Assembly (NCBI GenBank): GCA_021890795.1
Contig: JAKKUO010000003.1
Coordinates: 1-64,000, forward strand
Source: Bacillota bacterium
Lineage (GTDB): Bacteria > Bacillota > Sulfobacillia > Symbiobacteriales > ZC4RG38
Length of the DNA stretch: 64,000 nucleotides
Direction of reading: 5' to 3'
Part shown: positions 30,163 through 41,738 of the stretch, piece after piece
Layout of the letters: each line of letters starts with the position of its first letter
Position numbering within the stretch: position 1 is the first letter of the stretch
Notes under the pieces: model-generated
What the model saw: the letters and a program-made list of their open reading frames with translations, nothing else
Told to the model about the DNA's origin: nothing
The model's database searches: none
Translations under genes and position numbers: made by a program

Positions 30163-30483
30163 CTACAGCAGCGACTGGAGCTTCATGGCCAGGTTCAGAT
30201 CCCCCCGGACCTTGAGCTTCCCGGTCATGAAAGCGGTCATGGGGTTGAGCCGGCCGGCCACCAGGGCCTGAAAGTCCGCCGCCTCCATCTGGACGGTGCA
30301 GCCGGCGTCCGGGGCAGGCCCCTCCGCGACGGCGGTCTGGCCGTCGGCGATCCGGACATGGTAGGTACCGCCACCTTCCCCGGTCAGTTCAAACTGGTAG
30401 ACAGCGCTCAGCCCCTGCAGCCGCTCCGGGTGAACGTTGGCCCGGCGCTGAAGTTCAGCAAAGATCTCCCCCAGGGCAGACAT
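30163..30483 (-). CDS. SCP2 sterol-binding domain protein
   Basis: A 106-residue single-domain protein. The SCP2 fold is indicated by VYQFELTGEGGGTYHVRIADGQ and by the C-terminal LVAGRLNPMTAFMTGKLKVRGD, which is very typical. Such proteins bind lipids or fatty acyl groups; the exact ligand is unknown. The start is ATG 30483 behind AAGGGAG. Confidence 0.88.
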   Translation of the reverse strand: MSALGEIFAELQRRANVHPERLQGLSAVYQFELTGEGGGTYHVRIADGQTAVAEGPAPDAGCTVQMEAADFQALVAGRLNPMTAFMTGKLKVRGDLNLAMKLQSLL

Positions 30484-30560
30484 CCCCGCCACTCCCTTCT
30501 TCCCCCGGCCGTGGTTCCGGGGCGGCGCGGCGCCCCACTTCCCACAGCCGCTTGTTTTCA

Positions 30561-30589
30561 ATTGTACGGAAACGGCGGCGGGGTGTCCA
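30561..30589 (-). promoter_or_regulatory. Sigma-A promoter of the SCP2 gene
   Basis: TGGACA (30584-30589), a 17-nt spacer and TACAAT (30561-30566) on the minus strand, with a leader of about 70 nt. Confidence 0.7.
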
Positions 30590-30640
30590 GGGGCCGGTCG
30601 CCTCCGTCGCCCCCGGCGGCCGCCCCGGGAGCGGCTCCCC

Positions 30641-31846
30641 CTACCCCGCGGCCCGTACCGCCCGGGCCAGGGCGGCCACCCCCCGCTCCAGTTCCGCGGG
30701 CGGCAGGTAGCTGAAGGAGAGCCGGAGGTGCCGGGCGCCCTGGGCCGCGGCCGGGCCAAAGTAGAAGTGCCGGCCCGGGACGTAGGCCACCCCCGCTGCC
30801 AGGGCCGCCGGCAGGAGCTTTTCGCTGTCCAGCCCCGGCGGCAGGCTGACCCAGACAAAGTACCCCCCGGCGGGCTCGGTCCAGGTCACCCCGGCGGGCA
30901 TCTCCCGGGCCAGGGCCCCGAGGAGGACGTTCCGGCGCTCCCGGTACCGCTGCCGGAGCCAGGCGAGCCGGGCCGGCAGATCCGTCCCCTGGAGGTACCG
31001 GGCGGTGAGGGCCCAGGCCAGGGGGTGGTCCAGGTCCTTCTTGAAGACCGCCATCGCCCGGATGACCGGCTCCGGCCCGGCGGCCCAGCCGATCCGAAGC
31101 CCCGGGGCCACCACCTTGGAGAGGGAACCCAGGTAGACCACCCGCCCCCGGGTGTCCAGGGCCTTGAGGGGCGGCGGCGCGGCCTGGGGATCGAAGGCCA
31201 GCTCCCCGTAGGCGTCGTCCTCCAGGATCAGGAAGTCGTACTCCTCCGCCAGGGCGAGGAGCCGCCGGCGGCGCTCGAGGGAGAGGGTGGCGCCGGTGGG
31301 GTTCTGAAAGCTCGGGATGGTGTAAAGGAGCCGGGGCAGGGCCTTGCCGGCGGTCCGGCGGCGCCGGAGGTCCTCAGCCAGGGCTTCCACCACCAGCCCC
31401 TCCCGGTCCACGGGGTAGCCGAGGATGGCGTCGGTGTAGTTCCGGAAGATCTCCAGGGCCTCCATGTAGGTCGGGGCCTCCACCGCCACCGGCGCCCCCG
31501 GGGCGATGAGGGCCCGGGCGGCCAGGTCGATGGCCTGGCAGGCCCCGCTAGTGACCAACAGCTCCCCCTCCCCCACCGGGATCCCCCGCTGGGCGAGGCG
31601 CTGGCGGATGAGGCCGGGGAGGGCGGCCATCGCCCGGCTGCCCAGGTAGTGAAGGGGGGCATCGGCCTCCTCGGCCAAGAGGGCCTCCAGGGCGGCCGCC
31701 AGGTCGGCCACCGGCACCGACTCGGGGAAGGGGTAGCCGGCGCTCAGCCGGACCACCCCCGGCGGCAGGGGCGGCATCCAGGCCCCGGGGGGCGGGTAGG
31801 CGAGGGCCAGCCGGGCCGCGGGGGAGAGGAATCGCTGCGGGTGCAT
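30641..31846 (-). CDS. PLP-dependent class I/II aminotransferase
   Basis: A 401-residue fold-type I aminotransferase of the LysN/MocR-catalytic type. PSFQNPTGATLS and LEDDAYGELAFD precede the PLP lysine in GSLSKVVAPGLRIGW (about residue 240), and HLRLSFSYL lies near the end. It lacks the GntR-type DNA-binding domain. The start is ATG 31846 behind GGAGGGAG. It follows the ABC ATPase gene by 38 bp as the last gene of the ARG-box operon, so it may act on the imported amino acid or its catabolite. The substrate is unknown. Confidence 0.88.
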   Translation of the reverse strand: MHPQRFLSPAARLALAYPPPGAWMPPLPPGVVRLSAGYPFPESVPVADLAAALEALLAEEADAPLHYLGSRAMAALPGLIRQRLAQRGIPVGEGELLVTSGACQAIDLAARALIAPGAPVAVEAPTYMEALEIFRNYTDAILGYPVDREGLVVEALAEDLRRRRTAGKALPRLLYTIPSFQNPTGATLSLERRRRLLALAEEYDFLILEDDAYGELAFDPQAAPPPLKALDTRGRVVYLGSLSKVVAPGLRIGWAAGPEPVIRAMAVFKKDLDHPLAWALTARYLQGTDLPARLAWLRQRYRERRNVLLGALAREMPAGVTWTEPAGGYFVWVSLPPGLDSEKLLPAALAAGVAYVPGRHFYFGPAAAQGARHLRLSFSYLPPAELERGVAALARAVRAAG

Positions 31847-31884
31847 CGGGACTCCCTCCGGCTCAGGGTCGCAGTGCCTGGCGC

Positions 31885-32613
31885 TCACACATGTAGGACC
31901 TTGCTCAGGAACGCCCGGGTCCGTTCCTCCCGGGGGCTGGTGAAGATCACCTCCGGCGGTCCCTCCTCCACAATGACGCCGCCGTCCATGAAGATCACCC
32001 GGTCCGCGACCTCCCGGGCAAAGCCCATCTCGTGGGTGACCACCACCATGGTCATCCCCTCCCGGGCCAGGTCCTTCATCACTGCCAGCACCTCGCCCAC
32101 CAGCTCCGGGTCCAGGGCGGAGGTGGGCTCGTCAAACAGCATCGCCTTCGGCTCCATGGCCAGGGCCCGGGCGATGGCCACCCGCTGCTGCTGCCCGCCG
32201 GAGAGCTGGGAGGGGTAGGCGTCGGCCTTCTCTGCGAGCCCCACCTTGGCGAGAAGCTCCAGGGCGAGCCTGCGGGCCGCGGCCCGGTCCATCTTCTTGA
32301 CGATGACGGGCCCGCTCATCACGTTCTCCAGGGCGGTCATGTGGGGGAAGAGGTGAAACCGCTGGAAGACCATCCCCAACTTTGCCCGGACCTGGTCCAG
32401 CTCCGGGCCGCCCGGGGGCAGGGGCCGGCCGTCGATGTAGATGCGGCCTTCGGTGGGCTCCTCCAGCCGGTTGATGCACCGGAGGAGGGTGGACTTGCCG
32501 GACCCGCTGGGGCCGATGACGCAGACCACCTCCCCGGGCCGGACGTGCAGGTCGATCCCCTTGAGGACGTGAAGCTTACCGAAGCGCTTGTGCAGTCCCT
32601 CGATCCGGATCAT
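31885..32613 (-). CDS. Polar amino-acid ABC transporter ATPase
   Basis: A 242-residue ATPase with Walker [11 protein letters not shown]-loop [10 protein letters not shown], signature LSGGQQQR and Walker [13 protein letters not shown]. It is close to GlnQ/ArtP/HisP, whose family members energise polar amino-acid uptake. It overlaps the permease gene by four bases. Confidence 0.94.
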
Positions 32614-33260
32614 TCGACCCGCAGCCTCCTTTCCACCAGGGCCGCCAGCCGGGAGAAGGTGAAGGTCATGGCAAAGTAGATGGCCGCCGCGGCCAGATAC
32701 GCCGGGAAGGGCCGGTAGGTGCGGGAGGCGACGAGCTGGGCCGACCGGGTGAGGTCGGTGAGGGCGATCATCGCCACCACCGAGGTCTCCTTGAGCAGGG
32801 TGACCCCCTCGTTCACCAGGGGCGGGATCACCCGGCGCAAGGCCTGGGGCAGGACCACCCAGCGCATCGCCTGGGCGTAGGACATGCCCAGGGACCGGGC
32901 CGCTTCCATCTGCCCCCGGTCCAGGGACTGGATTCCCGCCCGGACGATCTCTCCGACGTACGCGCTGGAGTTGATCCCGAAGGCCACCACCGCGGCCCGG
33001 AACTCGTCCACCTGGAGCCCCAGGGCCTGGGGGATACCGAAGACGATGAGAAGGAGCTGCACCATCAGCGGCGTCCCCCGGAGGACTTCCACATAAGCGG
33101 TGGTGAGGAGGGCCAGCGGCCGCCAGGGGGAGAGCCGGGCCAGGCCCACGAAGGTGCCGAGGACGAGGCCGATGACAAAGGCCAGGAAAGCCAGCCGCAG
33201 GGTCATGCCGGCGCCTTTGAGGAGCAGGGGCAGGTTCTGGGCGAGAAAGTCAGGTGGCAC
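32610..33260 (-). CDS. Polar amino-acid ABC transporter permease
   Basis: A 216-residue inner-membrane permease with about five helices. The His/Glu/Gln/Arg-type signature is [17 protein letters not shown], and the EAA loop is [20 protein letters not shown]. The GTG 33260 start follows GGGAGGAAGG. Only one permease gene is present, so it probably works as a homodimer. Confidence 0.93.
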
Positions 33261-33413
33261 GGTTCCTTCCTCCCAACGGCGGCAGAGTGGGGAGCAGCGT
33301 GGGCAACGTGCCGGCGAGCGGCGGCAGGGTGGGCAGCAGGGCGGGTGCAGGGCAGCCGGCAGCGGCGCCGGGCCGGCAGGCATCGGACAGGGGGCGGGGC
33401 GGCGACAGGCGAC

Positions 33414-33438
33414 AAGGGGGCGGCGGCGCCGCCCCCTT
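33414..33438 (-). terminator. Intercistronic hairpin between binding protein and permease genes
   Basis: A perfect 11-bp stem (33414-33424 with 33428-33438) and three-base loop lies 40 bp after the binding-protein stop. It is probably an attenuator or mRNA-stabilising stem giving excess binding protein over permease. The rest of this 219-bp gap holds imperfect GCGGCAGGGTGGG-like repeats. Confidence 0.55.
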
Positions 33439-33479
33439 GGGGGATGGGTTCCACAGCCGGCCGGGCGCGGGGTCGGTCT

Positions 33480-34316
33480 TTACTGCGGCATGAACCACTT
33501 CTCGGTCAGCCGGTCGAAGCGGCCGTCCTGCTTCATCTTGGCCAGGACCTGGTTGACAAACTGGGTCAGGTCCGGGGTGTCCTTGCGCAGGGCAAAGGCG
33601 GTCTCCAGGGCCGGAAGCTCCGCCGCGATCTTCAGGTTCGGATTGGCCTTGATAAAGGCCTCGGCCACCACCTTGTGCAGGTACGTCGCGTCGGCCTGCC
33701 CCGAAGCCACCGCGGTGGCCGCCTCGGTGAAGAGGTTGTACTCCTTTACCTCCACTCCCTCGATCTGGCGCACCGCCTCCCCATGGACGGTGCCGATCTG
33801 GACGGCAACCCGATGCCCCTTCAGGTCCTCCAGGCTCTTGACGGGCTTGTCCCAGTCCTTGCGGACCACGATCGCGTCGGTCCCCGCCAGGTAGGGATCC
33901 GTGAAGTCCACCGCCTGCTTGCGCTCCTCGGTGACGGTGACGCCGGCGGCCATGATGTCGAACTTGCCCGCCTGCAGGGCAGGGATCAGGCCGTCGAAGC
34001 CCATCTGGACGATCTCCAGTTGCACCCCGAGTTCCTTGGCCACTTCCTGCATGATGTCGATGTCGAAGCCGACCACCTGGTTGTTCTCATCGAGGAACTC
34101 GAAGGGCGGGTAGTCCGGCGAGGTGCCGATCTTCAGCACGCCCTCCCGCTTGATCCGGTCCAGGGTGGGGGTTGCCGATGCCGCCGATCCCCCGGCGCCG
34201 CCGGACCCGCTGCTGCCGGCCTGGGCGCCGGAGCCGGCGGGCGCCTGGCCGCAGCCGGCCACCAGGGCGGACAGGGCAAGGAGAGCCGCAAAAAGAAGAG
34301 ACAGCCGACGTTGCAC
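33480..34316 (-). CDS. Amino-acid ABC transporter substrate-binding lipoprotein
   Basis: A 278-residue family-3 solute-binding protein with lipobox LVAGC and a Gly/Ser/Ala linker. The binding domain starts VLKIGTSPDYPPFEFLDENN and contains GFDIDIMQEVAKELG and VDFTDPYL. The GTG start at 34316 follows GGGGAGG. The ARG box in its promoter suggests arginine or another basic amino acid as ligand; the sequence does not prove it. Confidence 0.92.
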   Translation of the reverse strand: MQRRLSLLFAALLALSALVAGCGQAPAGSGAQAGSSGSGGAGGSAASATPTLDRIKREGVLKIGTSPDYPPFEFLDENNQVVGFDIDIMQEVAKELGVQLEIVQMGFDGLIPALQAGKFDIMAAGVTVTEERKQAVDFTDPYLAGTDAIVVRKDWDKPVKSLEDLKGHRVAVQIGTVHGEAVRQIEGVEVKEYNLFTEAATAVASGQADATYLHKVVAEAFIKANPNLKIAAELPALETAFALRKDTPDLTQFVNQVLAKMKQDGRFDRLTEKWFMPQ

Positions 34317-34338
34317 GGTGCGTAGCGCCTCCCCGGGT

Positions 34339-34354
34339 GTGAATACCTATTCAC
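34339..34354. promoter_or_regulatory. ARG box (predicted ArgR operator)
   Basis: GTGAATA and TATTCAC arms around CC make a perfect dyad. With flanks it fits the ArgR consensus wnTGAATwwwwATTCAnw except in the centre and one outer base. It lies just downstream of the predicted transcription start, a repressing position. Confidence 0.7.
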
Positions 34355-34371
34355 CAAACGCGCATGAGTAT

Positions 34372-34400
34372 ACTATACAAGAACCGTGAATCCCTGTCCA
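34372..34400 (-). promoter_or_regulatory. Sigma-A promoter of the amino-acid transporter operon
   Basis: TGGACA (34395-34400), a 17-nt spacer and TATAGT (34372-34377) on the minus strand, each one base from consensus. Transcription would start near 34364, immediately before the ARG box. Confidence 0.75.
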
Positions 34401-34552
34401 GACCAAAATGTGCCCGACCCAAAAAGTGTGACCGCCCGATAATCGGACCGCCAGAGGCCAATCGGCTGCCCGCCAGCCGCCAACCGGCTCCCCCAAGGGC
34501 CGAACCGCTAGGGAGAGAACCGCAGCGGGGATGGGAGGAGCCAGGGACGGCC

Positions 34553-34591
34553 CCTGTCGAAGGTTCCTGTCAAAGGTGCCTGTCAACTGTG
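34553..34591. repeat. 13-bp tandem repeat, three copies
   Basis: CCTGTCGAAGGTT, CCTGTCAAAGGTG and CCTGTCAACTGTG follow one another directly upstream of the RBS of the 73-aa gene. Together with the dyad CCGATAATCGG (34436-34446) this is the content of the 290-bp divergent gap. Confidence 0.7.
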
Positions 34592-34609
34592 GGATCAGGA
34601 GGCTTGGCA

Positions 34610-34831
34610 ATGGCAAAGTTCCGCAAGGTAAGGGTGGTCCGCCGGGTCCGGGACGCCCTGCCCGGCGACGGGTACAAGACCTGGGCGGAGCGGGAGCTCG
34701 AGGCGGCCAAGGAAGCCAAGTTCGAAGAGGACCCGTACCTGAACAAGGGCTGCCTCGGCTGTACCGGCGCCACCACGCTCTTCTTCGGCGTGCTGTTCCT
34801 GGCCCTCTTCCTGCAGAGGTGCAACCCCTGA
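34610..34831 (+). CDS. Small single-helix membrane protein (73 aa)
   Basis: A 73-residue protein from ATG 34610 behind CAGGAGG. The N-terminal half is basic then charged (KFRKVRVVRRVRDAL); a hydrophobic helix ATTLFFGVLFLALFLQ is near the C-terminus, preceded by GCLGC. It is probably tail-anchored with the N-terminus in the cytoplasm. No family is recognised. Confidence 0.55.
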   Translation: MAKFRKVRVVRRVRDALPGDGYKTWAERELEAAKEAKFEEDPYLNKGCLGCTGATTLFFGVLFLALFLQRCNP

Positions 34832-34948
34832 GCCGGCAGGCCCGCAGCCGCCCGGGAGCTCTCCCGCCCCGGGGCTCTCCCCGGCGGGGCCTCCCCGGTG
34901 CGGCGGGCGGCCCCTTGCCAAGCAGGTACCAAGGGAGCACAAAGCAAG

Positions 34949-34976
34949 GCGCCACACCCTCGGGGGTGTGGCGCCG
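34949..34976. terminator. Bidirectional terminator
   Basis: A perfect 12-bp stem (34949-34960 with 34965-34976) with a TCGG loop, extended by AA and TT, lies between the converging 73-aa gene and hemB. Confidence 0.75.
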
Positions 34977-35009
34977 TTGCGTTCGGCCCGCTCTCTTCCC
35001 GCACCCCGG

Positions 35010-35990
35010 TCAGGCTTCTTCCCGCAGCCACCGGGCGGCCTCCACCGCGTGGTAGGTGAGGATCAGGTCCGCGCCGGCCCGCTTGAAGCCCGTCAGGGTC
35101 TCCAGCACCACCCGGCGCTCGTCGATCCAGCCCCGGGCTGCGGCGGCCTTCACCATCGCGTACTCACCGGAGACGTTGTAGCAGGCCACCGGCACGTTCA
35201 CCTGCTGCCGGACCCGCCACAGGATGTCCATGTAGGCCAGGGCGGGCTTGACCATCACCACGTCGGCCCCTTCGGCCAGGTCCAGCTCCACCTCCCGCAG
35301 GGCCTCCCGGCCATTGGCCGGGTCCATCTGGTAGGAGCGCCGGTCACCGAACTGGGGGGCGGACTGGGCTGCCACCCGGAAGGGACCGTAGTAGGCGGAG
35401 GCGTACTTGGCCGAGTACGCCATGATCGCCACGTCCTGGAAGCCGGCCTCATCCAGGGCCCGGCGGATCACCGCCACCCGGCCGTCCATCATGTCCGAGG
35501 GGGCCACCATGTCGGCCCCGGCCTCCGCGTGGCTGAGGGCCTCCCGGGCCAGAAGCTCCAGGGTGGGGTCGTTCAAGATCTTGCCGTCCTGGACCACCCC
35601 GCAGTGGCCGTGGTCGGTGTACTCGCAAAGGCAGACGTCGGTGATGACGTAGACCTCCGGGAACCGGGCCTTGATGTTCCGCACCGCTTGCTGCACCGGG
35701 CCCCGGGGGTCCCAGGCGGAGCTGCCCTGAGGGTCCTTGTACTCCGGGATACCGAAGAGGATCACCGCCCGCACCCCGTGGCGCAGGGCGTTCTCCACCT
35801 CCTGGAGCACGGTGTCCGGGGACCAGTGGCAGATCCCGGGCAGGGCCTCAATCTCCTGCCGGACCCCGGTGCCCGGCACCACGAAGAGGGGATAGATAAA
35901 GTCGTCGGGGGTCAGGACCGTCTCCCGGACCAGCCGGCGGATGGTCTCAGACTGCCGCAGCCGCCGGGGGCGGTGGATGGGGAAGGACAT
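35010..35990 (-). CDS. hemB: Porphobilinogen synthase (delta-aminolevulinate dehydratase)
   Basis: A 326-residue enzyme that condenses two aminolevulinates to porphobilinogen. The two active lysines are in [15 protein letters not shown] and [11 protein letters not shown]. The Cys cluster [14 protein letters not shown] indicates the zinc-binding class. The start is ATG 35990 behind AGGAAGGTG. It is the last gene of the haem operon, 59 bp after hemD, and ends 30 bp before a bidirectional terminator. hemL is not in the window. Confidence 0.95.
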
Positions 35991-36049
35991 GGGCATCACC
36001 TTCCTGCTTCGCAACCTGGGGCGCCCGGCGGGGCGCCAGGGGTATGGCT

Positions 36050-36895
36050 TTATCCAGGGCTCTGGCCGTTTGCGGAGTTGGGTGAGGAGACTCGCCGCTG
36101 CCCGTCCCCCTGGGCGGCGTGGGCCGCCAGGGCGGCAGCCAGGCCTTCGGCGGTGGCCTCCGGGGGCACCAGATCCACCCGCACCCCCGCTTCCCGGGCC
36201 GCTGCAGCGGTAGAAGGCCCGATGCAGGCCACCGTCACCGGGGCAAGGAGCCGGACGCCGTCGGGCAGGGCCAGGAGGAAGTTCCGCACCGTCGAGGGGG
36301 ACGTGAAGGTGGCGTAGTCGATCCGCCCCGCGGCCAGGGCGGCCCTGAGCGGCTCCGGATCCCCCGCGGCGGGCACCGTCCGGTAGACCGCCACCTGGGT
36401 CACCTCAGCCCCGAGCCGCCGGAGGTCGCCGGCCACGTCCCCGGCCGGGTCCCGGGCCTGGGCCAGCAGGACCCGGTCCCCGGGGCGGAGGTGGGGCGCC
36501 AGGGCCGGGGCCAGTTCGCTCCCCCGGTACTCCCGGGGCACCACCGCCGGCTCCAGGCCGTACCGGGCCAAGGCCGCCGCGGTGGCCCGGCCCACGGCAG
36601 CGATCCGCAGGTGGGGCGGCAGGACCGCCCCCGGCCCCCGCAGGTGGTCGAGCCGCTTGAAGAACTGGTGGACGCCGTTCTGGCTGGTGAAGACCAGCCA
36701 GGCGAAGGACTCCAGCCGGGCGAGGGCCGCATCCACCGGCCCCCAGTCTTCGGGATCGGCGATGGCGATGGTAGGAAAGTCCCAGACCTCCCCGCCCAGC
36801 CGGCGGATGGCCTCAGCCAGCCCGGACTGCTGCTCCCGGGCCCGGGTGACCAGGACCGTCCGCCCCGCCAGGGGCCTCAGGGACGCTCCGGGCAC
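36050..36895 (-). CDS. hemD: Uroporphyrinogen-III synthase
   Basis: A 281-residue, poorly conserved but recognisable HemD. It starts [27 protein letters not shown] and has [19 protein letters not shown] and [14 protein letters not shown] in family order. It closes hydroxymethylbilane to uroporphyrinogen III with inversion of ring D. The GTG 36895 start follows GGGGAGGTGG. It sits between hemC and hemB. Confidence 0.92.
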
Positions 36896-36999
36896 GGTTC
36901 TCCACCTCCCCTTCCCGGGGTGTCTCCCCTTCTCGCGGTCTGTGTGCCCTTCGTCTCCGGGCTATCGACCCTCCCCGGGGCTCCCCGCTCCTCCCCGGG

Positions 37000-38076
37000 C
37001 TATCCGCCCCGGTGGATCTGCTCCAGCACCTCCCGGCCGCCCAGGGCCAGGACCTGCTCTGCCACCCGGGTCCCCAGGCCCTCGGGGTCCTCCGGGGCCC
37101 CCTCCGCCTCCCAGGCGGCGATCCGGCTGCCGTCGGGCAGGGCCACCAGGCCCCGGAGGTGGAGCCGGTCCCCCGCCAACCGGGCGTGGGCGGCCACCGG
37201 GGTCTGGCAGGAGCCGGCCAGGGCGGGCGCCCGGCCCGGCGCCCCGGGGCCCGCGCTGCCGGCCACCGCGGCGGCCCCTGGGGCAAGGGGCCGGGCCTCC
37301 TCCGGGCCCGCCAGGGGCTGGGCCCCTGCCAGGCCCGCCACCGCCTGGGCCTCCCGGGTGATCCGGGCCATGAAGGCCCGCTCCGCCCGGACCGCCAGGG
37401 CGGTCGGCAGGTGATGGAGCGGCGCCAGCAGCCTGGCCATCTCCTCATCCCCGGCCCGGATCTCCAGGGCCAAAGCCCCCTGCCCCACCGCGGGGAGGAG
37501 GACCCTCGGGTCCAGGTACTCGGTGATCCGCCCGGCGAAGCCCGCCCGGTGCAGCCCCGCGGCGGCCATCACCAGCGCGTCGAACTGCCCCTCCTCGAGT
37601 TTCCGCAGCCGGGTGTCCACGTTCCCCCGGACCGGCCGGTACTCCAGGTCCGGCCGGAGGCGCCGGAGTTGGGCCAGCCGCCGGAGGCTGGAGGTGCCCA
37701 CCACCGCCCCTGGCGGCAGCTCCGCCAGCGGGGTGCCGTCCCGGGCGATCACCACGTCCCGGGGATCCTCCCGCTCCGGGATACAGCCCAGGGTGAGGCC
37801 CGGCGGCAGTTCCGTCGGCATGTCCTTCAGGCTGTGGACCGCCAGGTCCGCCCGGCCGTCCAGGAGGGCCTCCTCCAGTTCCTTGGTGAAGAGCCCCTTG
37901 CCCCCCACCTGGCTGAGGGGAATCCCCGCGGCCTGGGTGCGGTCCCCCTGGGTCCGGTAGATCTCGATGGCAAAGCGAACCCCCGGGTGCAGGGCCTCCA
38001 GCCGGGCCACGACCCACCGGGTCTGGCTGAGGGCCAGGAGGCTCCCCCGGGTGGCCACCCGCACGGTCTTTCCCAC
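37000..38076 (-). CDS. hemC: Hydroxymethylbilane synthase (porphobilinogen deaminase) with an insertion
   Basis: About 358 residues; typical HemC has about 310. Conserved parts are VRVATRGSLLALSQT, VGGKGLFTKELE, AVHSLKDMPT, GTSSLRRLAQL and AVGQGALALE. The cofactor-carrying cysteine is in GSCQTPVAAHA. About 45 Ala/Gly/Pro-rich residues are inserted between RAFMARI and this cysteine loop, at the entry to domain 3. The start is placed at GTG 38076, nine bases after AAGGG; GTG 38085 touches it. It follows hemX by 15 bp. Confidence 0.93.
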   Translation of the reverse strand: MGKTVRVATRGSLLALSQTRWVVARLEALHPGVRFAIEIYRTQGDRTQAAGIPLSQVGGKGLFTKELEEALLDGRADLAVHSLKDMPTELPPGLTLGCIPEREDPRDVVIARDGTPLAELPPGAVVGTSSLRRLAQLRRLRPDLEYRPVRGNVDTRLRKLEEGQFDALVMAAAGLHRAGFAGRITEYLDPRVLLPAVGQGALALEIRAGDEEMARLLAPLHHLPTALAVRAERAFMARITREAQAVAGLAGAQPLAGPEEARPLAPGAAAVAGSAGPGAPGRAPALAGSCQTPVAAHARLAGDRLHLRGLVALPDGSRIAAWEAEGAPEDPEGLGTRVAEQVLALGGREVLEQIHRGG

Positions 38077-38091
38077 AGGCGACACCCCTTG

Positions 38092-38925
38092 TCACAGGTC
38101 GAACCGGTGCCAGTCCGAGGCAAAGCGGTTGATCACCAGGTAGTTGGCCGCCGCGCTCAGGAAGCCCAGGATGCTCCACCAGGCCGCCTGCCGGCCGCCC
38201 CATCCCCGGTACCGCCGCACCGCGAGGTACCCCGCGTACAGACCCCAGGTGAGAAGGGTCCACAGGAGCTTGGCATCCAGAGCCCAGCCAGCGTGCCCCC
38301 ACAGACGGCCGGCGAAGAGGCTGCCGGAGACCATCGCCAGGGTGAGGAGGGTGAACCCCGCGGCCACGCACCGGTGCCCCCACAGGTCCAGCCCTTCCAG
38401 GGAGGGGAGCCGGTAGCTGAGGGGCCCCATCGCCTTCCGGCGGAGCTGCCACTCCAAGAGCAGGTACATCGCTCCGGCGACAAAGGCGCCCACCGAGCAC
38501 CCCAGGGCGAAAAGGGCCACCAGGGCGTGGCCCGCGACGATCGCGACGGGCACCGGCGGCGCCGGCCCCGGTGCGGACGCCGGGACAGCCCGGGGCAACC
38601 CGGCCCCCGCCACCAGCAGGAGAAAGATCACCGGGAGCAGGAAGACCCCGGCCCCGAGGTTCCGGGATCGCCAGTCGTACACCAGGTAGAGGCCGACCAG
38701 GAGCCACGTGAGAAAGACGGCGGCCTCCGGGATGGTGTAGGCCGGAAAGCGGCCGGTCCGGAGGACCAGTAAAGCCAGGGCCCCGGTGTGCAGGATCCAG
38801 GCGCACCGGGTAAGCTCCCGGGTCAACCGGTCCCACCGCCGGTAGAAAAGCATCAGGTGGGCCACCGCGGCCAGGGTGTAGGCCAGGGTGGTCCCGACGT
38901 AGAACACCGCCAGCCCGCTGCCCAC
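38092..38925 (-). CDS. hemX: HemX/CcsA-family membrane protein
   Basis: A 277-residue protein with about eight helices. The C-terminal half carries the CcsA/CcmC-like segment WGHAGWALDAKLLWTLLTW and WGHRCVAAGF. In Bacillus, HemX is encoded in this place and lowers HemA abundance. The GTG 38925 start follows GGGGGAGG. It lies between hemA (15-bp gap) and hemC. Confidence 0.9.
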   Translation of the reverse strand: MGSGLAVFYVGTTLAYTLAAVAHLMLFYRRWDRLTRELTRCAWILHTGALALLVLRTGRFPAYTIPEAAVFLTWLLVGLYLVYDWRSRNLGAGVFLLPVIFLLLVAGAGLPRAVPASAPGPAPPVPVAIVAGHALVALFALGCSVGAFVAGAMYLLLEWQLRRKAMGPLSYRLPSLEGLDLWGHRCVAAGFTLLTLAMVSGSLFAGRLWGHAGWALDAKLLWTLLTWGLYAGYLAVRRYRGWGGRQAAWWSILGFLSAAANYLVINRFASDWHRFDL

Positions 38926-38940
38926 GCCGCCTCCCCCGCC

Positions 38941-40359
38941 TTACCCGTCCCCGGGGGCCGGCAGGGCCTCGGGCTCCGCCGCGGCGCCGGTCCGCCGCCG
39001 GCCAGCCACCGGGCAGTCTTCCGGCCGGCCCCAGGAGGCCCGGAGGGCCCGGTCGGCCGCGGCCACCGCCGGGTCGTCGGCCCGAGCCGGTTCGAGGCGG
39101 AACAGCCGGGCCACGAGGGCTGCCGCCGCCCGGGCCTCCCCCCGGCCGCCATCCTCGGCCAGGCGCTTGAGCTCCTGGGTCGGGTCGTTGAGGATCTTGT
39201 TGACGATGGCCACGGTCAAGGCCTCGATCACTTTCCGCTCCCGGTCGCTCAGGTTCGGCAGCCGGCCCAGAGCCCGCTGCAGCTCCGCCTGCCGGATCCG
39301 ATCCGCCTTCTCCCGCAGCTGCCGGATGGTAGGCACCACCGCCTGGGTGTTGAGCCAGGCCTGGAACCGCTCCACCTCCTCCGCCACGATGGCTTCCGCC
39401 CGGACGGCCTCCCGGGCCCGCTCCTGGAGGTTCTGGGCCACCACCTGCTCCAGGTCGTCGATGTTGTACAGGAAAGCCCCCTCCAGCTCGCCGACGGCGG
39501 GGTCCACATCCCGGGGGACCGCGATGTCAAAGAGGAAGATGGGCCGGCCCCGCCGGGCCCTGAGCGCCCGCTCCACCATCTCCCGGGTGAGCAGATACCC
39601 TTCGGCCCCGGTGGAGGAGATGACCACGTCCACCTCCTGGAGCGCCCCCGGGACGGCCTCCAGGGGAATGGCCCGGCCGCCGAAGGCGCCGGCCAGCTTC
39701 TCCGCCCGCTCCAGGGTCCGGTTGGCCACCAGGATCTGCCCCACCCCGGCTGCGACCAGGTGCCGGACCGTCAGTTCGGCCATCTCTCCGGCGCCGATGC
39801 AGAGCACCGTCCGGCCCTGGAGGGACTGGAAGAGCTTCTTGGCCAGTTCCACCGCCGCGTAGGGGACCGAGACCGGCATCTCGCTGATGGCCGTCTCGGT
39901 GTGGGCCCGCTTGGCTGCCGCCAGGGCCTGGTGCATCAGGTGGTGCATGTACTTGCCCACCACGCCGGTCTCCGCCGCCTGCCGGTACGCATCCCGCACC
40001 TGGCCAAGGATCTGGGTCTCGCCGAGAACCATGGAATCCAGGCCGGCGGCCACCCGGAAGAGGTGGCGCACCGCCTCCAGCTCTTCATGCCGATACAGGA
40101 AGGGCGTGATCGCCTCTGCCGGAAGCCCCCGGAGCTCGGCCAGGGTCGCCGCCAGCCGCGCCGCGGCCTGGGCCGGAGCGGTCACCGTGGCGTAGACCTC
40201 GGTCCGGTTGCAGGTCGAGAGCAGCACCACCTCGGCCACCTCATCCAGGGCGGCCAGACGGGTCAGGGCAGCGGGGAGTTCCGGCGCCGAAAAGGCCAGC
40301 CGCTCCCGCAGTTCGACCGGTGCCGTCCGATGGTTCATGCCGAGGGCGATCAGGTGCAT
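38941..40359 (-). CDS. hemA: Glutamyl-tRNA reductase
   Basis: A 472-residue enzyme for the first step of C5 haem synthesis. It has GMNHRTAPVELRERL, the catalytic cysteine in STCNRTEVYA, the HLFRVAAGLDSMVLGETQILGQV core and the NADPH site GAGEMAELTVRHL. The Pro/Ala/Arg-rich C-terminal tail (about 425-472) extends past the normal end. The start is ATG 40359 behind AGGTGGG, discarding 19 codons upstream. It is the first gene of the operon. Confidence 0.95.
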   Translation of the reverse strand: MHLIALGMNHRTAPVELRERLAFSAPELPAALTRLAALDEVAEVVLLSTCNRTEVYATVTAPAQAAARLAATLAELRGLPAEAITPFLYRHEELEAVRHLFRVAAGLDSMVLGETQILGQVRDAYRQAAETGVVGKYMHHLMHQALAAAKRAHTETAISEMPVSVPYAAVELAKKLFQSLQGRTVLCIGAGEMAELTVRHLVAAGVGQILVANRTLERAEKLAGAFGGRAIPLEAVPGALQEVDVVISSTGAEGYLLTREMVERALRARRGRPIFLFDIAVPRDVDPAVGELEGAFLYNIDDLEQVVAQNLQERAREAVRAEAIVAEEVERFQAWLNTQAVVPTIRQLREKADRIRQAELQRALGRLPNLSDRERKVIEALTVAIVNKILNDPTQELKRLAEDGGRGEARAAAALVARLFRLEPARADDPAVAAADRALRASWGRPEDCPVAGRRRTGAAAEPEALPAPGDG

Positions 40360-40461
40360 CTTGCTTCCCACCTGCTCCCGCAAGATTCGGATTTGCGGAC
40401 GGGCTCCGGGGAGCACCCGATCCTACAGCCCGATCCGTACAGGTTGTCATTATTCTTGAGC

Positions 40462-40490
40462 ATTCTAGCACCGGGGGCAGAAAGGGTCAA
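40462..40490 (-). promoter_or_regulatory. Sigma-A promoter of the hem operon
   Basis: TTGACC (40485-40490), a 17-nt spacer and TAGAAT (40462-40467) on the minus strand. A leader of about 95 nt containing a GCTCC/GGAGC stem precedes hemA. Confidence 0.75.
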
Positions 40491-40501
40491 GAAAGGACGC
40501 C

Positions 40502-40960
40502 TCACCGCAAGGGCTTCTCCATCTGGTACCGGGTGACGGTGTAGCCCAGGGAGCGGTAGAGGCCCACGGCCCGCTCGTTGCTGGCGGTGACCATCAGGTG
40601 GACGGTGTGGCAGCCCCAGGAACGGAAGTACTCCTCCCCTTCCGCCATCAGCTTGCGGGCCACCCCCTTGCCCCGCCAGGCCGGATGGACATAAAGGGCC
40701 GCCACTTCCCCTCGCCGGCGCCCCCGGCTGTCCAGCTCCAGCACCAACCAGATGAATCCCACCGGGCCCCGGCTCCCGTCGGCCACCAGCACCAGCTGGG
40801 CCGGATCCCGGGCAGCCTCCCGGAGCCGCTGTCGCTGCCGGCTGAGGAACTCCGGCGTGGCGACAAAGCCGGGGAAGTTGGTCTCGTACAGCTCCGGCAT
40901 GAAGGAGATCAGGGTCTCCACATCCCGGGGGTAGTCAAAGCGGCGGACAACCACGGTCAC
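40502..40960 (-). CDS. GNAT-family N-acetyltransferase
   Basis: A 152-residue GNAT protein. The acetyl-CoA motif is LYVHPAWRGKGVARKLM, and the C-terminal strand-helix is LMVTASNERAVGLYRSLGYTV. The acceptor is unknown. The GTG 40960 start follows GGAGGAGG, 31 bp after menG, so it may be the last gene of the menaquinone operon; the hem promoter follows its stop. Confidence 0.88.
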   Translation of the reverse strand: MTVVVRRFDYPRDVETLISFMPELYETNFPGFVATPEFLSRQRQRLREAARDPAQLVLVADGSRGPVGFIWLVLELDSRGRRRGEVAALYVHPAWRGKGVARKLMAEGEEYFRSWGCHTVHLMVTASNERAVGLYRSLGYTVTRYQMEKPLR

Positions 40961-40991
40961 GGGTGTGACCTCCTCCGCGGGCCGGCGCCGG

Positions 40992-41738
40992 TTACGCCGC
41001 CGGCTTGGTGCCGTAGTGGATACAGACGCTCCCCAGCATCAGCGGCACGTAACCCACATCCCGGAAACCCACGCCTTCCATGATTCCGGCCAGCCGCTCC
41101 GGCGAAGGGTAGCCCCGCAGGGAGTTGGAGAGGTAGGTGTAGGGACGGATCCGGGCCTGGGGCCCGGCCCGGACCACCAGCCAGTCGATCAGGGGCAGGA
41201 GGGTCTTCCACCAGGCGTGGAGCAGGGCCCGGCTCCAAAGGCTCTGGGGGTTGGCGGCCTCCAGGTTTACGTACCGGCCGCCGGGCTTCAAGACCCGGTA
41301 AGCCTCCTGCAGGGTCCGGCGGATATCCCGGACGTTCCGCATCGCCCAGCCCATGGTGACGCAGTCGAAGGTGTTGTCCGGGAAGGGAAGGTCGAGGGCG
41401 TTCCCCTCCCGGAGCTCGACGATCTCCCGGTAGGGCGAGGCCTCCACCCGGCGCCGGCCCACCGCGAGCATCCCCGGGGAAATGTCCACCCCCACCACCC
41501 GGCCGGTGGGGGCCACCTGGGCCGCGGTGAGCAGGGTCAGATCCCCGGTGCCGCAGGCCACATCCAGGGAGCACATACCGGGCCGGAGACCGGTGTACCG
41601 GGCAAAGATCCGGTGCCACCGCCCCCACTGGCCCAGGGACATGATCTGGTTCATCCGGTCGTAGTACGGGGCGATCTGATCGAAGAGTTCCCGGACGTAA
41701 GCCTCTTTCTCCGCTCCCGTGGGGTGCCGATACGCCAA
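40992..41738 (-). CDS. menG: Demethylmenaquinone methyltransferase (UbiE/MenG)
   Basis: A 248-residue SAM methyltransferase. The UbiE signatures are FDQIAPYYDRMNQIMSLGQ, SLDVACGTGDLTLL and MGWAMRNVRDIRRTLQEAYR. It performs the final C-methylation of menaquinone. The TTG 41738 start follows AAGGAGG. It is 18 bp after an ABC permease gene and on the same strand as ubiA and ubiD, consistent with one menaquinone operon. Confidence 0.93.
   Translation of the reverse strand: MAYRHPTGAEKEAYVRELFDQIAPYYDRMNQIMSLGQWGRWHRIFARYTGLRPGMCSLDVACGTGDLTLLTAAQVAPTGRVVGVDISPGMLAVGRRRVEASPYREIVELREGNALDLPFPDNTFDCVTMGWAMRNVRDIRRTLQEAYRVLKPGGRYVNLEAANPQSLWSRALLHAWWKTLLPLIDWLVVRAGPQARIRPYTYLSNSLRGYPSPERLAGIMEGVGFRDVGYVPLMLGSVCIHYGTKPAA

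Follow-up and report, generated by a model that had tools for sequence, protein, structure and literature searches.

A tandem ARG-box operator probably controls an amino-acid transporter-aminotransferase operon in a Bacillota genome

What controls an amino-acid transporter operon whose promoter is closely followed by a perfect inverted repeat? The window analyzed here, a stretch of 64,000 nt comprising positions 1 to 64,000 (forward strand) of contig JAKKUO010000003.1 in assembly GCA_021890795.1, carries on its minus strand an operon that begins at a GTG codon at 34316 and encodes in succession a substrate-binding protein (SBP), a permease, an ATPase, and an aminotransferase. The first-pass annotation had read the repeat as an operator of the arginine repressor ArgR. 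Judging from sequence, we assign a probability of about 0.88 to a fuller form of that reading, in which arginine-loaded ArgR would sit on two ARG boxes arranged in tandem and repress the transporter-aminotransferase operon. The features concerned are as follows.

34372 to 34400, minus strand: SigA-type promoter, TGGACA (34400-34395), a 17-bp spacer and TATAGT (34377-34372)
34359 to 34376, no strand: candidate ARG box B (18 bp, the weaker), overlapping the -10 and predicted start, about -11 to +7; matrix score 8.2 bits
34338 to 34355, no strand: candidate ARG box A (18 bp), about +11 to +28, enclosing the perfect dyad GTGAATACCTATTCAC
34328 to 34334, minus strand: Shine-Dalgarno-like GGGGAGG, 11 nt ahead of the GTG start
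33480 to 34316, minus strand: family-3 substrate-binding protein (PF00497), by family match
32610 to 33383, minus strand: polar amino-acid ABC permease, by family match
31885 to 32613, minus strand: polar amino-acid ABC ATPase, with a 4-nt overlap with the permease stop
30641 to 31888, minus strand: PLP aminotransferase, class I/II, by family match

The promoter, which had been correctly recognized as a sigma-A type site and lies on the minus strand, agrees with 10 of the 12 consensus bases, and a scan of 30200-35100 returned two promoter-like sites compared with a shuffle average of 0.2. Transcription is predicted to start at 34365, 7 nt past the -10, and all start-relative positions given here depend on that prediction. 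A perfect 16-bp dyad does precede the transporter operon, as annotated: at 34339-34354 the arms GTGAATA and TATTCAC flank CC, or GG when read on the minus strand (34354-34339). Its placement downstream of the start, previously put at about +10, becomes +12 to +27, and the second box at 34359-34376 had been overlooked. The E. coli ArgR consensus is given as TNTGAATWWWWATTCANW in an excerpt of PMC4865122, and box A fits all 10 of its informative core positions, as had been claimed for the dyad, its core TGAAT-N4-ATTCA agreeing with the published form. One outermost base is off the E. coli consensus on either strand, and the GC-containing centre, ACCT, departs from the E. coli WWWW at two positions, which we count against the ArgR reading. 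Box B is 3 bp from box A and 21 bp from it centre to centre, equal to the E. coli spacing of 18 + 3 bp, and the two would form a tandem operator spanning about -11 to +28 rather than a single box. A further stretch resembling a box, at the -35 (8/10), was set aside, being out of phase, reduced to 7/10 in the same-genus genome G001, and absent from the 12 top-scoring matrix sites in the window.

The genome encodes a single ArgR, a check that the first-pass annotation had proposed. The gene lies on C43 (one match to the PF01316 profile, E 5.8e-24), and its product aligns over residues 9-150 of 153 with solved arginine repressors, the best solved relatives being so named. Exact matches to TGMATNNNNATKCA number four in the 2.79-Mb assembly, compared with none in the backward control, and are found in the promoters of argC, argH, and the transporter operon and inside the pyrG frame (argH and pyrG were identified by reading the protein starts). 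The argC and argH promoters carry TGCATACATATGCA; the argF promoter carries two 9/10 boxes, TGAATACCTATGCT and TGCATAAATATGCG, 21 bp apart (pair spacing is 20 bp at both argH and argC); and a weaker box, TGATTGTATATGCA (9.1 bits), lies upstream of argR. The genes argC, argJ, and argG occur together on C17, where the intervening frames read as argB and argD. No box was found at a second, weaker argF-like gene (C89, L063), and a search of G001 for argC gave 0 matches at 1e-30.

Most of the arg-promoter boxes have the form TGCATA..TATGCA, and a whole-assembly search found the identical GTGAATA/TATTCAC dyad absent from the argC, argF, argH, and argR promoters. The first-pass annotation had named such an absence as grounds for giving up the ArgR reading, and in its exact letters the expectation fails; what argC, argF, and argH have in common is the ArgR consensus, and these ARG boxes together with the presence of argR support the reading of the dyad as an ArgR operator. 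The dyad is unique in the assembly, which contains no other match at up to one mismatch, one at two mismatches, and 10 at three. The three-mismatch matches are largely background, because the backward control gives 6 per strand compared with 12. The two-mismatch match and nine of the 10 three-mismatch matches were fetched with wider flanks, and inspection by eye of the frames near four of the weak matches (L003, L005, L009, and L011) revealed no arginine genes. A search pattern of 7-bp arms with a 4-nt gap was discarded, as it matched the site only at three mismatches, the real gap being 2 bp.

A scoring matrix was trained on 10 arg-promoter boxes, namely those of argC in seven genomes of the order, the argH box of this genome, and its two argF boxes, with the transporter boxes excluded. 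Box A scores 16.7 bits, the best site in the 64-kb window, and box B is second best at 8.2, a test against which we count that the consensus guiding the choice of training sites was drawn up with the dyad already known. None of 30 whole-window shuffles produced a site as good as box A (top score 13.8), and when the 270-bp upstream region was shuffled 2000 times, a fraction of 0.0005 reached the box A score. In 179,810 own-genome bases, which are chosen stretches rather than random ones, four sites lacking any known connection to arginine score 11.8 to 14.5 bits (L036, L034, L035, and L038), two of these high-scoring stretches having been fetched for a loose dyad match. Because these sites outscore both the argR box and box B, the credibility of box B comes from position and conservation, not from score alone. 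At argC, the best neighbouring box within 18-23 bp lies at 20 or 21 bp in seven of seven genomes, with scores, taken without a shuffled control, of 22.5, 12.4, 10.4, 7.1, 7.1, 5.4, and 2.1 bits. Separately, the ArgR-like site at L036:1357-1374 (C43, about 21357), TTTGCATAGCTGTGCATG, with 14.5 bits, is located ~140 bp upstream of a spo0A-like frame, and a weak site 24 bp off is outside the usual spacing.

Conservation was assessed at seven distinct transporter loci including that of the window, G003 and L025 being the same contig and counted once, and G005 and G006 being left out as they had no SBP match at 1e-50; SBP starts in G003, G004, and L024 were placed by eye for the matrix test. Five of the seven have a significant box (the window, G001, G004, G007, and L024; P at most 0.0015 in 2000 shuffles per locus), and the box in G003 is weak (P 0.072). 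The G007 SBP is only 36% identical and its locus may not be orthologous. Compared with G001, the DNA between the -35 and the start codon is nearly intact, with the promoter, both boxes, and the Shine-Dalgarno sequence kept; the two 7-bp arms of box A, the -10 together with the box B core, and the Shine-Dalgarno sequence are identical, most differences being located in the spacers and the box A centre. The two boxes rank top at that locus (L018), scoring 20.7 and 10.3 with the same 21-bp spacing and a third site at -0.6. Both boxes are kept in G001 only, a single box being present in G004, L024, G007, and G003. For the two SBP paralogues in the window's own genome, a 420-bp scan turned up no box (best scores 1.2 and -3.4), in favour of the ArgR reading. 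Counting against it, no box was found upstream of the SBP in G002, which belongs to the same family (best -5.2, P 0.27). In G002 a GntR-like frame (L048:2370-3062) overlaps the SBP start, and the regulator of that operon may have been exchanged.

The uniqueness of the perfect GTGAATA arms in the genome, and the GntR-like frame directly ahead of the SBP in G002, would both suit a dyad that serves another, transporter-specific regulator, for example of the GntR or TetR type. We nevertheless consider this quite unlikely: the box core fits both the ArgR consensus (PMC4865122, in excerpt) and the matrix built from the arg promoters, the second box is in phase, and the boxes of L024, G004, and G007 differ in letters yet still score as ArgR sites. 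No regulator gene is apparent beside the operon among the frames in 31000-41000, which were judged by eye except for the four operon proteins covered by the family scan. Less probable still is translational control by a hairpin that the leader RNA would form just ahead of the Shine-Dalgarno sequence. The repeat does lie in the predicted leader, where it could form a stem of 6-7 bp with a 4-nt loop, but in L024 and G004 the box overlies a TATAAT and is not in the leader, and RNA leader structure was rejected on the grounds that the fold is no better than that of shuffles (z +1.37 for the window, +0.52 for G001) and that Rfam returned zero matches up to E 5 in 34200-34700. A chance palindrome without function, for which the largely background three-mismatch matches might speak (control 6 per strand compared with 12), is very improbable given the exact match, the two in-phase boxes, their retention in G001, and the failure of all 30 window shuffles to score as high.

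The extent of the putative ArgR-controlled unit can be judged from its layout. A consensus scan found no promoter-like sites inside the operon, and each of the three terminator-like patterns there, one of which is on the plus strand, lies within a gene; 30200-35100 as a whole has six such patterns compared with 2.2 in shuffles. Measured to the first ATG of the permease, the gap after the SBP gene is 96 bp; homology begins near 33260-33290, where the true permease start probably lies, and a start there would widen the gap to about 190-220 bp. This layout makes co-transcription of the permease and aminotransferase with the SBP plausible, and the gene order suggests that the aminotransferase comes under the same ArgR control. 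The aminotransferase frame extends back into the ATPase stop, with homology beginning 15-19 residues in. L023, a same-genus contig, and L024 show the same four-gene succession; an aminotransferase relative lies nearby on the opposite strand in G002, none was found in G007 within its 10-kb stretch, and the G003 and G004 contigs are too short past the transporter to judge.

On the other side of the promoter, a 73-residue divergent frame (MAKFRKVRVVRRVRD...; 34610-34831, plus strand) points away from the operon, in a stretch that is kept in G001 (88% over 73 codons, compared one base out of frame). The adjoining run at 35010-40416 on the minus strand reads as haem-synthesis genes, comprising hemB, hemD, hemC, a cytochrome-assembly-like protein, and hemA.

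The importer is predicted to take up basic amino acids, and arginine is our best guess as the substrate, based on regulation and nearest relative. The closest solved structures to the SBP are 6svf (E 1e-63) and 4prs (E 5.9e-61), both of which we take to be the T. maritima arginine-binding protein (TmArgBP), the chain count agreeing with the published F38/F76 numbering. In TmArgBP these two residues are the aromatics facing the guanidinium (PMC7589609, in excerpt). The SBP has Tyr and Phe in the corresponding columns and scores 174.3 bits against TIGR01096 (Lys/Arg/Orn binding), below the cut-off of 256.35. In this protein family the alpha-amino group of the ligand is bound by an Asp (D161-like in LAO). 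The equivalent column is His in five of seven related SBPs (the window, G001, L024, G004, and G002) and Asp in G003, G007, both own-genome paralogues, 6svf, and 4zv1; the His may mark a different substrate. The nearest solved relatives of the aminotransferase are archaeal aminotransferases and 2-aminoadipate and kynurenine/aminoadipate aminotransferases. Given this replacement of the Asp and the aminotransferase gene at the end of the operon, a further reading, which we regard as unlikely, is that the importer carries an arginine-related compound with its alpha-amino group changed or missing, that the aminotransferase interconverts it, and that ArgR controls its salvage into the arginine pool. 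The aminotransferase could in that case turn the imported compound into, or form it from, the amino acid.

Returning to repression by ArgR at the tandem operator, we predict that, with abundant arginine, a hexamer of ArgR loaded with arginine would occupy boxes A and B side by side, masking the -10 and start point and blocking initiation by RNA polymerase, and that a drop in arginine would free the operon together with argCJBDG, argF, and argH. ArgR binding, the sign of control, and the start site are all predictions from sequence, and repression of the operon by arginine is likely. The location of the strong box A downstream of the predicted start counts against ArgR repression. In E. coli, ArgR is described as a poor roadblock and a box downstream of the start as unusual for strongly repressed promoters (PMC6640053, in excerpt), so that a downstream box alone would be a poor site for strong repression; the presence of box B over the -10 eases this weakness.

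Together these observations offer a supported first sketch of an ArgR regulon in a Bacillota genome, in which the operator logic of E. coli, including the 21-bp spacing, appears to recur in a distant lineage. They also draw attention to an SBP and an aminotransferase whose position in the arginine regulon could guide identification of their substrate. In a literature search on Symbiobacterium, ArgR, and arginine, the papers returned did not, by title and opening of the abstract, concern such control.

Control of arginine transporters by the ArgR family is itself already known in E. coli and in Gram-positive bacteria, as excerpts of two sources describe (PMC6640053; PMC12713382). The present operon resembles E. 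coli artJ/artPIQM and hisJ as an ABC amino-acid importer under ArgR control with tandem 18-bp boxes and a 3-bp spacer, but differs from artJ and artP in that the boxes there overlap the -35, whereas here the weak box covers the -10 and the strong box lies past the start (PMC6640053, in excerpt). It also contains a terminal aminotransferase gene, unlike artJ/artPIQM and hisJ. The E. coli lrp promoter shares ARG boxes downstream of the start, but there both boxes are downstream, an arrangement called unusual in the same excerpt (PMC6640053), whereas in the present operon box B overlies the -10. In Gram-positives, ArgR/AhrC likewise controls transport genes, for example in S. pneumoniae, but with other transporters and regulator sets, and the control of rocE in B. 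subtilis is activation (PMC12713382, in excerpt).
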